Positions 35,101 through 41,100 of a stretch of 64,000 bases of DNA are shown here, piece by piece; the stretch's first letter is position 1, and each line of letters opens with the position of its first letter. The DNA is taken from the NCBI GenBank assembly GCA_963971535.1, contig OZ020593.1:13141689-13205688 (forward strand), in the 5' to 3' direction. This DNA is from Notolepis coatsorum (Eukaryota > Chordata > Actinopteri > Aulopiformes > Paralepididae). The notes beneath the pieces are model-generated. The model worked only from the letters and a program-made list of their open reading frames with translations. It was not told where the DNA came from and did no database searches. Both the position numbers and the translations under genes were made by a program.

Positions 35101-38100
35101 TGAAGTCACGCTAGGAGAACAACCACGTGCCGGTGAGAAGAAGAGCGGAGGTGCTGAAGCTAGGAACGTCATGCAAGTCGGGTTAGACGCTGAGCAGACC
35201 CTCCCACTGACCAGGAGGGGGCGCGTCTCCAGGGTTAAACCTAAACCTTGCCTGCGACCGGCTACTAGGATAGTGACCACACACTCGGAAGAACCAGAAC
35301 CTCTCCAAACGGCATCACAACCTCCCGTGGAAAGGGTTGGTAGCCCTTTCAGTGCACTCTTTCACTCTTTACCCCAATACTTCGCAGAGCCCACCGAGCA
35401 GCCTATTCCATTGAGTTCTGATGAAGCCTTCACCTCCAACAGTGAGACTGTGACCTCTGAACCTGTAGTCACTGAAAGTTCCTGGCTTATTGAAGATCCC
35501 TTCTTCACGGACGAATCGGAAAACTGTGAGATGCCTGTTACTGCCACCACACCAGCAGAGGAGCCGTCTAGTGGTGAAGAGAAGACGGACGTTGGGTCCG
35601 CTCTGCAGACGGAACCGAGCTCAGAGCAGGACGTCCCCCAGGCCACCAGGAGGAGCCGTGTGTCAACAGTCAAACCCAAACCCAACCTCAGACGGTCTCC
35701 CAGAGCCACAGAGTCCGCAGAGGATACGACACAAGATGGCTCGAAACCTTCGCCGACTACTAGCCAGCTGTCGTGCTCTGAGAACACTGGTGCCATTCGT
35801 ATGGGTCACTCAGAGGTGAAAGGTCACGATGCCTCCCGAGAACAGCGTGAGCGATCGAACAAGGATGATTCTGCACAGGCTCAGAGGTAAGACATGTCAT
35901 GTTCTTCCCTTCTCTTTTGTATATCGGCATGGAGCTGCTGAATGTCATGATGGATGCACACTGTAGAGATAATCGGCATAAGAGATATATGGTTCTTCTG
36001 AATGCTTCAATTGACTCATCTCGAACCCTGCCTTCTATTCTTGATCCTCCAATGTTGCTTCCCTCGGGAAGAACATGCTTGTCTGAGGAAACAATTGTGA
36101 TTGGAGGATCAGGAAAACAGGGCAGGGTTTGAGATGGGTCCATTATCTTAGGCCCATTAACTCCTAGCCCCTTTCGTGACTGTGATGCAAGCCTTGCTTG
36201 AATACGCAGTCACTCATTCTACGCTACTAGCCATGTTAATGTGCACCATCAAGCACTGGTTAAAAACGAGCGGTTGGTCCAAAATATATCAGATATACAT
36301 TTCAAAGGTACTCACCGTTGCATTAGGGTTTCACACACAACAGCGGGGGGGTTTGAAAGCTCGGTGTTGCTAATAAACATTTTAAATAATTTTTATAAAC
36401 GAGTAAAAAAAATCACTGAGCTAGCCTTGGCTAAAATGGCTGTTTCCGCATTTTGACGCCGGAGCGCTGTGATTGCTGGGCGCACCAGGCATGTGACAAA
36501 GCAGCCAGCAATCACAGCGCTCCTGCGTCAAAATGAGGAAGCAGCCATTTTAGCCAAGGCTAGCTCAGTGATTTTTTTACTCGTTTATAAAAATTATTTT
36601 AAATGTTTATTAGCAACGGCGACCTTTTAAACCCCCCCGCTGTTGTGTGTGAAACCCTAATGCAACAGTGAGTACCTTTTGAAATGTATATCTGATATAT
36701 TTTGGACCAACCGCTCGTTTTTAACCAGTGCTTGATGGTGCACATTAACATGGCTAGTAGCGTAGAATCAGTGACTGCGTATTCAAGCAAGGCTTGCATC
36801 ACAGTCACGAAAGGGGCTAATTAACTCCAAGCAGAGCATGTGTCTGGATCTTCTGCAACGTCTTTTTTGTCATTCTCCATGTTTTCGACCCGACTCGATC
36901 CATAGTCGACTGCCAACCTCTTAGTCGAATGCAAAGAAATAAAGAAAATTTAAATAAAACATTTGAATATTATAATAATGGCTAACACTAATGGTGCGCA
37001 TACCAGCGAGGCTAACTGCCTAAGAAAACGGTCACAGAGGCACTGAAAGAGGATTTCACCGTCTAATGAACACACTAGAGTAGACAAATATCAAGATGTA
37101 TCCATCAGTGGACCAATTGCATGCTTTCGCAGAGGACAAGAAGCCTTCAGTCGACTCCTTCAGACATTAAGCACCCCCCACAGCCCAAATGGAATGATAC
37201 AAAACATTTAAATGTATATATTTTTTTGCATTCAGCTACCAGTCGACTATCTGCAAATTTTGGCCAATCAAAGTCGACTATACAAATCCTTAGTCTGGGA
37301 CAGGCCTACTCTGAACCATAGAGAAGGACGCCTTTAACGTTGGAGGTGAAGATGCACACTTTCATCTTCATCTGGGTCCATTATGTGTGAAAAGTAATTT
37401 GTTTAGAACATCATCTTCTTCCTCTTCCACTCCCAGTGCCGGAGACGCCCAGCCAGGGACATCTGACCCGGATCAATTCTCAAAGAAGGCTCCCCCGGTT
37501 CGCAGGGCCAGACTCCCCAAACCCAACAGTGAGACTGTGACCTCTGAACCTGTAGTCACTGAAAGTTCCTGGCTTATTGAAGATCCGTTCTTCACGGACG
37601 AATCGGAAAACTGTGAGATGCCCGTTACTGCCACCACACCACCAGAGGAGCCGTCTAGTGGTGAAGAGAAGACGGACGTTGGGTCCGCTCTGCAGACAGA
37701 ACCGAGCTCCGAGCAGGACGTCCCCCAGGCCACCAGGAGGAGCCGTGTGTCAACAGTCAAACCCAAACCCAACCTCAGACGGTCTCCCAGAGCCACAGAG
37801 TCCGCAGAGGACACGACACAAGATTCCTCGAAACCTTCGCCGACTACTAGCCAGCTGTCGTGCTCTGAGAACACTGGTGCCATTCGTATGGGTCACTCGG
37901 AGGTGAAAGGTCACGATGCCTCCCGAGAACAGCGTGAGCGATCGAACGAGGATGATTCTGCACAGGCTCAGAGGTAAGACATGTCATGTTCTTCCCTTGT
38001 CTTTTGTATCGGCATGGAGCTGCGGAATGTCATGATGGATGCACACTGTAGAGATAATCGGCATAATAATCGGCAGAATCGGAATCACGTTATGCACCAA

Positions 38101-41100
38101 TGTAAGGACACACAGTTTTGACACAGTTACCGCAAGAACATACAACAGTCCTTGTTCTAACGGTACAACACACAGTATACACGACAGAGTACATCTCACA
38201 TAGTCATCACACACATCTCACATAGCGGTTGCTTTTTCCAAAAGCAAAAAGGCCTAGAAGCGTGGCTAACGCTAATGGCGCACATACCACTAGTGAGGCT
38301 AACTGCCTAAGAAAACAGGCACAGAGGCACTGAAAGAGGATTTCACCCATCTAATGAACACACTACTTAGAGTAGACAAATATCAAGATGTATCCATCAG
38401 TGGACCAATTGCATGCTTTCGCAGAGGACAAGGAGCCTTCAGTCGACTCCTACAGACATTAAGCACCCCCCACAGCCCAAATAGAATGATACAAAACATT
38501 TAAATGTATACCGTAATTCCTCTAATAGTAACCGGTATTCAATTAAAAACCGGGTCTCTATTAATGACCGGGTGTGCTGTTGAGCTAAGCAATTATAAGC
38601 CGGCCTCCTAATACAAGCCGGGTTTCATGTATATTAGAGGAATTACGGTATTTCCCTCAACGGATTTACCATAGGCAATATATTTTGTTATTGTTGTTAT
38701 ATGCTGGCCTGGCTGTGCAGTAAATACCATATAATGGTATGTGTTAATGTTTACCAAGAGAGTAAGCCTACCTCAGAATTGTATAAAACGAAGTTATTAT
38801 TATTATACCAGTATTGTGATTGCACTATTTTACTTTATTTAATTTTTTTTGACCACCTGTAATTGCACTGTTTACTACCGTATTTCATACAGTACTTGGT
38901 TTCAATAAATGAACCCAGTACATTTTACTGGGTTCATACTGACACAAAATGTTGATTTATTCATTACGATCCGTTTGAAAATTTGAAATATAGGCCTCTC
39001 TCTTATACAGGCCTCCTCCTAATACAAGCCTGGTACCCGCTACAGTTGAAACAAATACAAGCCGGGGTTACTATTAGAGGAATTACGGTATATATTTTTT
39101 GCATTCGGCTACCAGTCGACTATCTGCAAATTTTGGCCAATCAAAGTCGACTATACAAATCCTTAGTCTGATGCACACCTTCATCTTCATCTGGGTCCAT
39201 TATGTGTGAAAGTAATTTGTTTGGAACAATCATTTGTTTAGAACATCATCTTCTTCCTCTTCCACTCCCAGTGCCGGAGACGCCCAGCCAGGGACATCTG
39301 ACCCGGATCAATTCTCGAAGAAGGCTCCCCCGGTTCGCAGGGTCAGACTCCCCAAACCCAAACCCAACCTGAGTCGCAGATCTCAACCTGCATGCTCCCA
39401 GCCAGTCCGAGACACGACACCATCAGAATTAGGTGAGAACACTTGAAAATAAAAAAAAACTTGTGGGGCCCTGGTTTAAAAAACACCATACATTTATTAA
39501 AAAAAAAAAAAAAAAAAAAAACGTTTTTATTCAATGTTAAAAAAGATAATTTACCAAAATATGTTAAAAATCAACAGCCTATTGTTTTATTCAATTTGTT
39601 TTTAGTTGAAAAAAGATTTTACCAAAATATGATTTACCAAAAATGACTACATTGAATAAAGAAATGTGTTTTATTGTCATTATTTTCTAATTCAATATTT
39701 TCTTTATAAAACAAGATTTTGTCAAAAAAATAAATATTCCATTTTGAGTCTTGAAAAAGAGGGGTCGTCTTATAATCAGACCAATACAGTATTGCTTAGT
39801 GTCATTTAAGATAAGATATTCCTTTATTGATCCCCTTGGGGACATTCGGGAGTCATAGCAGCATGGGGCAGGGGGGGAGGGGAGGTACAGGTATGGGCAG
39901 CGTCTCTCTGATTGGCCACTGCTGTTTCTGGTCACACCAATCGTGTGACGGCAAGTTCTTTCGCCGGTTAAGCTTAGGCACTCTTTCGAAGTTGGTTAAG
40001 GTTAGAGTTTGTCTTAGAACAGGGCGATAGAACACCAGCTTTGATTCCAAACTCTAACCATAACCAACTTCGAAAGAGTCGCCTAAGCTTAACCAGTGAT
40101 AAACTAGGCGTTAGGTAGTTTGCTGCTGGTCGAGGCGGAAATGGGCGTGTCACGCGATTGGGCGCACATGTCACATGACCAGAAACGCCAGTGGCCAATC
40201 AGATTAGCAAAACGCATAAACCGGTTGCCTTTCGAATAGACGCGTATGGGCAGGGTAATAGTAAAAATACATAAATATAGGCAATACAATTTTGATCTGA
40301 ATAAAAAATTAACAGTGTTAACAATATAATCAACTCTGAATATAAACTGAATATAAACATTTTAATTGAAAAAAGAATCGGAGAATCATTTTATAATTAT
40401 GACTCCTGCAAGACATGATCGCAGGAGGATCTTAGTTGGACAATAATGAACGTTCTTCTCTCGTCTGCTCAACCCTACCCTTCCCGGCACTCGTTTAGAC
40501 GTTCTGGAGGACTCTGCTTCCCAGACGGAAGACCGCAAGCCCAGCTCTGACACCCAGGAGCCAGCAGGTGGCGCCAGAGACGGCAGCACCGCTCCCACAA
40601 CACCTGTGCGTTCCCTGCAGGTAGGAACTGGGGCAAACGTGACATGATGACACTATGTAACAACCCATCATCCACACTCACGGCACACACACTCACTTTA
40701 AACAAACACTCACCTTACCACTCACTTTAGACACTTTAACACTAAATTATATTTATCTATTATTATAGAGATTTGCACTACATTCATACCTCATTGGCAC
40801 ATTACCCTACGTTTTGTACCTCATTTCTGCATTGTACCTCACTGTTACCCATTTTACTCTGTACTGTATATTGTATATATTGTATATTGAACATTAATTT
40901 ACTTCCTTTTTACCTACTTCTTAAAAACATTTTTACTTACTTTTTTACTGTATGAAGCACACTCTCAGGGGCTCATACAGAAACAAGCATTTCATCGTAA
41001 AGTATTCTGTATTTTATTGTGACAAATAATAAACAAACTTGAAAACTTGAAACATCAGCAGAACCAGGAGGATGTGTGTGTGTGTGTCGATGGTGTTTGA

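Follow-up and report, generated by a model that had tools for sequence, protein, structure and literature searches.

The window analysed here, i.e. the whole stretch of 64,000 nucleotides from Notolepis coatsorum, contains a gene that is identified as BDP1, encoding the TFIIIB component B'', an RNA polymerase III factor. This identification is based on one open frame that matches both Pfam Myb_DNA-bind_7 (PF15963) and PDB chain 5n9g_C, a TFIIIB component B'' homolog that we take to be human. PF15963 scored 43.9 bits in this frame (E 2.2e-11), above the cut-off of 31, and 29 of 34 residues are identical to those of 5n9g_C; the 5 matching chains are without exception TFIIIB component B''. The next part of the domain appears to lie in a second, short frame, in which PF15963 reached 16.9 bits (E 0.0055), below the cut-off. 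The features considered below are as follows.

15268-15555, plus strand: open frame with part of a SANT domain (Pfam Myb_DNA-bind_7), used to identify BDP1; next part at 17040-17138.
31082-35886, plus strand: exon 18, the large 3' coding exon of BDP1, recognized from a 1602-codon open frame, tandem arrays, self-comparison and a donor.
35436-37526, plus strand: first copy of the duplicated unit, comprising the end of exon 18, intron 18 and the start of exon 19.
36165-36819, plus strand: dispersed fold-back element of 655 nt, almost fully palindromic, present in intron 18 only and flanked on both sides by ATTAACTCC.
37437-37973, plus strand: chimeric exon 19 (537 nt), in which the acceptor and first 90 nt are exon 20-like and the last 451 nt and donor are exon 18-like.
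37523-37526, plus strand: duplication junction with the 4-nt microhomology CCAA.
37523-39361, plus strand: second copy of the duplicated unit, comprising the remaining part of exon 19, intron 19 and the start of exon 20.
38511-39088, plus strand: element of 578 nt with terminal inverted repeats, present in intron 19 only, with a target-site copy that, lying in a TA run, is read as TATA or alternatively as TA.
39272-39432, plus strand: exon 20, 161 nt long, from which the 5' part of exon 19 derives.

The exon numbers 18-20 are those of an earlier note on this DNA, and position 31082 is the first base of the open frame and not the exon 18 acceptor. Exon 18 ends at 35886 with the donor AGAG/GTAAGA. 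Within this exon, a coding minisatellite at 31516-32711 contains ~44 copies of a 27-nt unit in the BDP1 frame, specifying a 9-residue unit (e.g. SQPTESPMT); the same array holds further open frames, one on the plus strand and two on the minus strand. A second coding array, at 33355-33695, consists of ~4 copies of an 84-nt unit (96% matches), and older internal duplications with spacings of ~0.8-1.0 kb and 67-82% identity occupy 33887-35710. Two additional minisatellites were found elsewhere in the window: a G-rich one with a 37-nt unit at 22013-24048 (~53 copies; GC skew of 0.74 in 22001-24000) and one with a 47-nt unit at 55424-56382 (21 copies), in which several minus-strand frames are open. 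Outside the window, on a 102-kb contig, RAG1-like pieces were observed that look intron-split, are partly present twice and adjoin long simple repeats.

The C-terminal tail of the predicted Bdp1 protein contains recurring R-x-R...KPKPNL motifs and is repetitive and probably disordered. The tail had no match in Pfam, and exon 19 and the exon 18 tail each gave 0 matches against the sequences of solved chains, among which was a B'' homolog chain of 2624 residues. According to PMC5526994, human Bdp1 isoforms differ in the length of their C-terminal extensions, in which a 55-residue repeat is the hallmark; the extension is presented there as important for regulation and not strictly required for in vitro transcription. 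The tail motifs identified here may correspond to the human 55-residue repeats, as judged only by their position and look. A longer Bdp1 tail may be tolerated in N. coatsorum, since the human extension is not strictly required in vitro.

The earlier note had described exon 19 as a chimera, with a 5' part equal to exon 20 (2 differences in about 88 bases) and a 3' part equal to the end of exon 18 (about 10 differences in 446 bases, no indels), and its lengths and counts proved correct to within a few bases. Nucleotides 1-90 of exon 19 are identical to exon 20 at 88 of 90 positions, and nucleotides 87-537 are identical to 35436-35886 at 441 of 451 positions, with 0 indels. The two matches overlap by exactly 4 nt, CCAA, i.e. 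at the microhomology named in that note, and these bases (37523-37526) can be assigned to either copy of the unit. A BLAST comparison of 35436-35981 with 37523-38066 gave an E-value of 0.0. The homology ends sharply, the ungapped identity beyond the breakpoints being only 21/60 on the left and 8/60 on the right; because similarity outside the breakpoints is this low, long homology at the breakpoints, and with it recombination between long repeats as the cause, is unsupported. A search of the 3.42-Gb assembly with exon 19 returned four places (4 candidates, 4 scored), all inside the window, which speaks against another BDP1 locus and against a retained haplotig.

The chimeric exon keeps the reading frame. 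Spliced in the order 18-19-20, the exons are stop-free over 1834 codons from the first open base at 31082, and a direct splice from exon 18 to exon 20 is stop-free over 1655 codons, so that exon 19 adds 179 residues, the number given previously. Exon 19 is in phase 2 at its 5' and 3' ends alike, and its skipping is therefore neutral to the frame, which also agrees with the earlier note. Both of its splice sites are inherited: the acceptor sequence is identical to that of exon 20 and the donor sequence to that of exon 18, as had been proposed. The residues encoded by exon 19 include a cut-short motif, RRARLPKPN, joined to a 10-residue stretch, plus one full 16-residue motif.

Seven synonymous and five nonsynonymous differences separate the coding copies over 178 codons (pS 0.055 and pN 0.012), two of the five nonsynonymous differences being neighbouring bases in one codon. 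This lean to synonymous change (one-sided binomial p 0.011) shows constraint on the coding copies; the same lean would be expected between two alleles. Exon 19 is probably included in the mRNA. It could instead be real DNA that is skipped, or a copy-number polymorphism carried by a single individual and without a lasting role, an explanation that we regard as doubtful without being far-fetched. The frame-neutral skipping is in keeping with it, as are the supply of all content by the parent exons and the repetitive, probably disordered nature of the protein tail; it is harder to reconcile with splice sites that are unchanged from the parent exons, with the synonymous lean and with copies that are old enough to hold unshared insertions.

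The earlier note proposed, as the simplest history of the chimera, a single tandem duplication with one end inside exon 18 and the other inside exon 20. It did not include a match between the introns, and this match is the strongest evidence for a single duplication: the intron was copied as predicted from such an event. Introns 18 and 19 share four collinear matching blocks at their start, middle and end, with 2/92, 10/240, 1/83 and 3/86 mismatches, i.e. 16/501 in total (gaps set aside; 6 gap openings in the four blocks). These counts were taken from BLAST, a global MAFFT alignment being meaningless in the middle of the introns, and the comparison was started at 35888 and 37975, one base late, which leaves the mismatch counts unaffected. 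In the same divergence test, which was made without gap positions, the two exon blocks had 10/451 and 2/89 mismatches. The six blocks together differ at 28/1041 positions (2.7%), and their rates are even (chi-square p 0.63). The single-duplication history is thus supported by copied intron sequence, by collinear blocks and by an intron divergence similar to that of the exons. The two copies are adjacent and collinear, each contains exon and intron sequence, the breakpoints lie inside exons, the ends are sharp and the junction is readable, as in a tandem internal duplication. A retrocopy, or the copying of exons only, is ruled out because intron sequence was also copied, and separate copying of the exon parts fits poorly with collinear, evenly diverged blocks of exon and intron.

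A history of several steps, in which single exon parts were duplicated or gene conversion later acted between exons 18 and 19, must also be weighed. A few bases at most separate the exon 18 breakpoint from a 33-nt length difference between two older repeats of this exon: the older copy (34450-34520), after removal of 34465-34497, equals 35422-35459 except for 2 single-base changes, with CTC at both ends. Since the breakpoint adjoins this difference, an additional step in the history of this site is possible. The closeness may well be due to chance, because gaps open 12 times in the 587 columns of the longest alignment of the older exon 18 copies, and the 33-nt difference can be explained by one substitution and a separate event between the CTC repeats. 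Several steps would also suit the middle stretch that the introns do not share, which is complex: 35982-36978 in intron 18 is replaced by 38067-38262 in intron 19, and the difference is no simple insertion. For 38060-38270, no further full-length match was found in the genome among the best 40 of 148 candidates, in which partial matches of 74 and 83% were seen at two places and the others are confined to its last 35-39 nt. Given the collinearity and even divergence of the homologous blocks, we attach only a small probability to this multi-step history.

A false duplication in the assembly, arising if two alleles or a mis-joined bubble had been set one behind the other, would produce a similar arrangement. 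A divergence of ~2.7% and unshared dispersed elements are possible between alleles. Set against this, 16 differences in 501 intronic positions would be high for alleles of most vertebrates, and the copies are joined at a 4-nt microhomology; microhomology of at least 4 nt was reached by 2.3% of 200000 random position pairs (exon 18, 33000-35886, versus exon 20). The sequence is also nearly gap-free: only 2 gaps of 200 N are present in 244 kb (the window plus 180 kb around it), and none is in the window. The host contig is 134 Mb long, in an assembly of 4787 contigs. Tandem arrays of 1-2 kb, e.g. 22013-24048 and 31516-32711, are passed without a gap, which suggests that the assembly was built from long reads; such reads would span a 4-kb region. 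An assembly artefact thus appears unlikely, and we give it at most a slim chance.

A protein search with the SANT frame bears on gene copies elsewhere. It gave at least 150 matches (best 150 of 1035 candidates), and among the matches listed the whole frame is covered only at its own place in the window. Of the other 149 listed matches, four extend to residues 71-82 (41-52% identity), and none of the remainder goes beyond residue 66. As the known SANT part corresponds to frame residues 43-76, a diverged second BDP1 copy is conceivable at most.

Both introns carry a dispersed element that the other lacks. The 578-nt element of intron 19 (query 38511-39090) has at least 40 matches in the genome, its own place included (best 40 of 1464 candidates); the listed matches are 97-100% identical, and nearly all of them cover positions 1-580. 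Its empty site is directly visible in copy 1 at 37190-37240, apart from one T in a T run. For this comparison, the joined flanks were examined at 14 offsets, and the offset that matches copy 1 (39093) was chosen. The empty site in copy 1 indicates that this insertion postdates the duplication, unless the copies are alleles. The 655-nt fold-back element of intron 18 has at least 98 matches (best 40 of 5292 candidates, with many places counted on both strands), including full-length copies elsewhere with up to 94% identity, and copies are present on many contigs. The stretch around it, 35982-36978, is missing from copy 2, where 38067-38262 stands in its place, so that no clean empty site exists for the fold-back element, which may or may not have inserted after the duplication. 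Folded alone as RNA, the element gave -567 kcal/mol, compared with a mean of -172 for 20 shuffles. A nearly perfect fold-back of 655 nt in a transcribed intron could possibly be a target of RNA editing or influence splicing.

The reading that we prefer, at a probability of roughly 0.88, is that one tandem duplication of ~2.1 kb in BDP1 created exon 19, that the copies later diverged and that the exon is probably included in the mRNA. According to this proposal, a segment of ~2.1 kb that starts in exon 18, spans the intron and ends in exon 20 would have been copied, and a point inside exon 20 would have been joined to a point inside exon 18 at the 4-nt microhomology CCAA. One coding stretch would then lie between the acceptor of exon 20 and the donor of exon 18, forming a new phase-2 exon with two inherited splice sites. 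Afterwards, the copies would have gained their ~2.7% differences and the unshared dispersed elements. Exon 19, if present in the mRNA, would lengthen the repetitive C-terminal Bdp1 tail by 179 residues, and it may thereby affect the protein. As repair mechanisms, template switching and microhomology-mediated joining are both candidates. A join would fall in frame in one case out of three even without selection, which weighs against the proposal and counts on the side of a false duplication.

The class of mechanism is already known, because duplications of whole introns with flanking exon sequence have been described (in the part of PMC4974935 consulted). Two tandem internal duplications in TOUCH3 of Arabidopsis (Knowles and McLysaght 2006, cited in this part of PMC4974935) copied a whole intron and the exon sequence flanking it on either side; the BDP1 case is similar in that a pre-existing intron was copied in full along with parts of the two adjoining exons, but TOUCH3 is a plant gene, whereas BDP1 is here a vertebrate one. 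Segmental duplications containing entire introns are attributed to Gao and Lynch in the same text. A potato RdRp gene, also described there, underwent a recent tandem duplication across an intron-exon boundary and shares with BDP1 a breakpoint inside an exon and mostly parental splice signals; it gained a new intron with a newly used donor, whereas the two splice sites of each intron were inherited unchanged here. Intragenic duplication of exons in a vertebrate gene is exemplified by dmrt1 of Solea senegalensis (consulted part of PMC7605655), in which, unlike in BDP1, whole exons II and III were copied, the copies were seen in cDNA and a partial exon lacks the correct frame. A general survey of domain-repeat growth (PMC1553488) likewise describes repetitive protein regions that grow by tandem copies, and the chimeric-exon anatomy observed here is absent from the part of it consulted. 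In literature on BDP1, chimeric exons and tandem duplication (titles and starts of abstracts, in a partial listing), no chimeric BDP1 exon was found. A literature search for FLT3 duplications across intron 14, a conceivable parallel, found nothing, and this parallel was not used.

A bolder proposal is that exon 19 serves as a regulated, frame-neutral cassette, that, in this lineage, the length of the Bdp1 tail is tuned by repeated tandem duplication (27 nt, 84 nt, ~0.8-1.0 kb and 2.1 kb across exons) and that the 655-nt RNA hairpin of intron 18 influences inclusion; we consider this improbable as a whole.

The duplication appears to be a clear and rather recent case of a known route of gene growth, and the BDP1 case alone opens no long-standing question. 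The locus adds a readable vertebrate example in which both breakpoints lie in coding sequence, and its age is low enough that these breakpoints, the junction and a subsequent insertion remain directly legible. When two breaks fall within coding exons, the resulting exon can be ready for splicing from the outset, because both of its splice sites are inherited. The case also suggests that the fast-changing Bdp1 tail grows by duplication at several scales.
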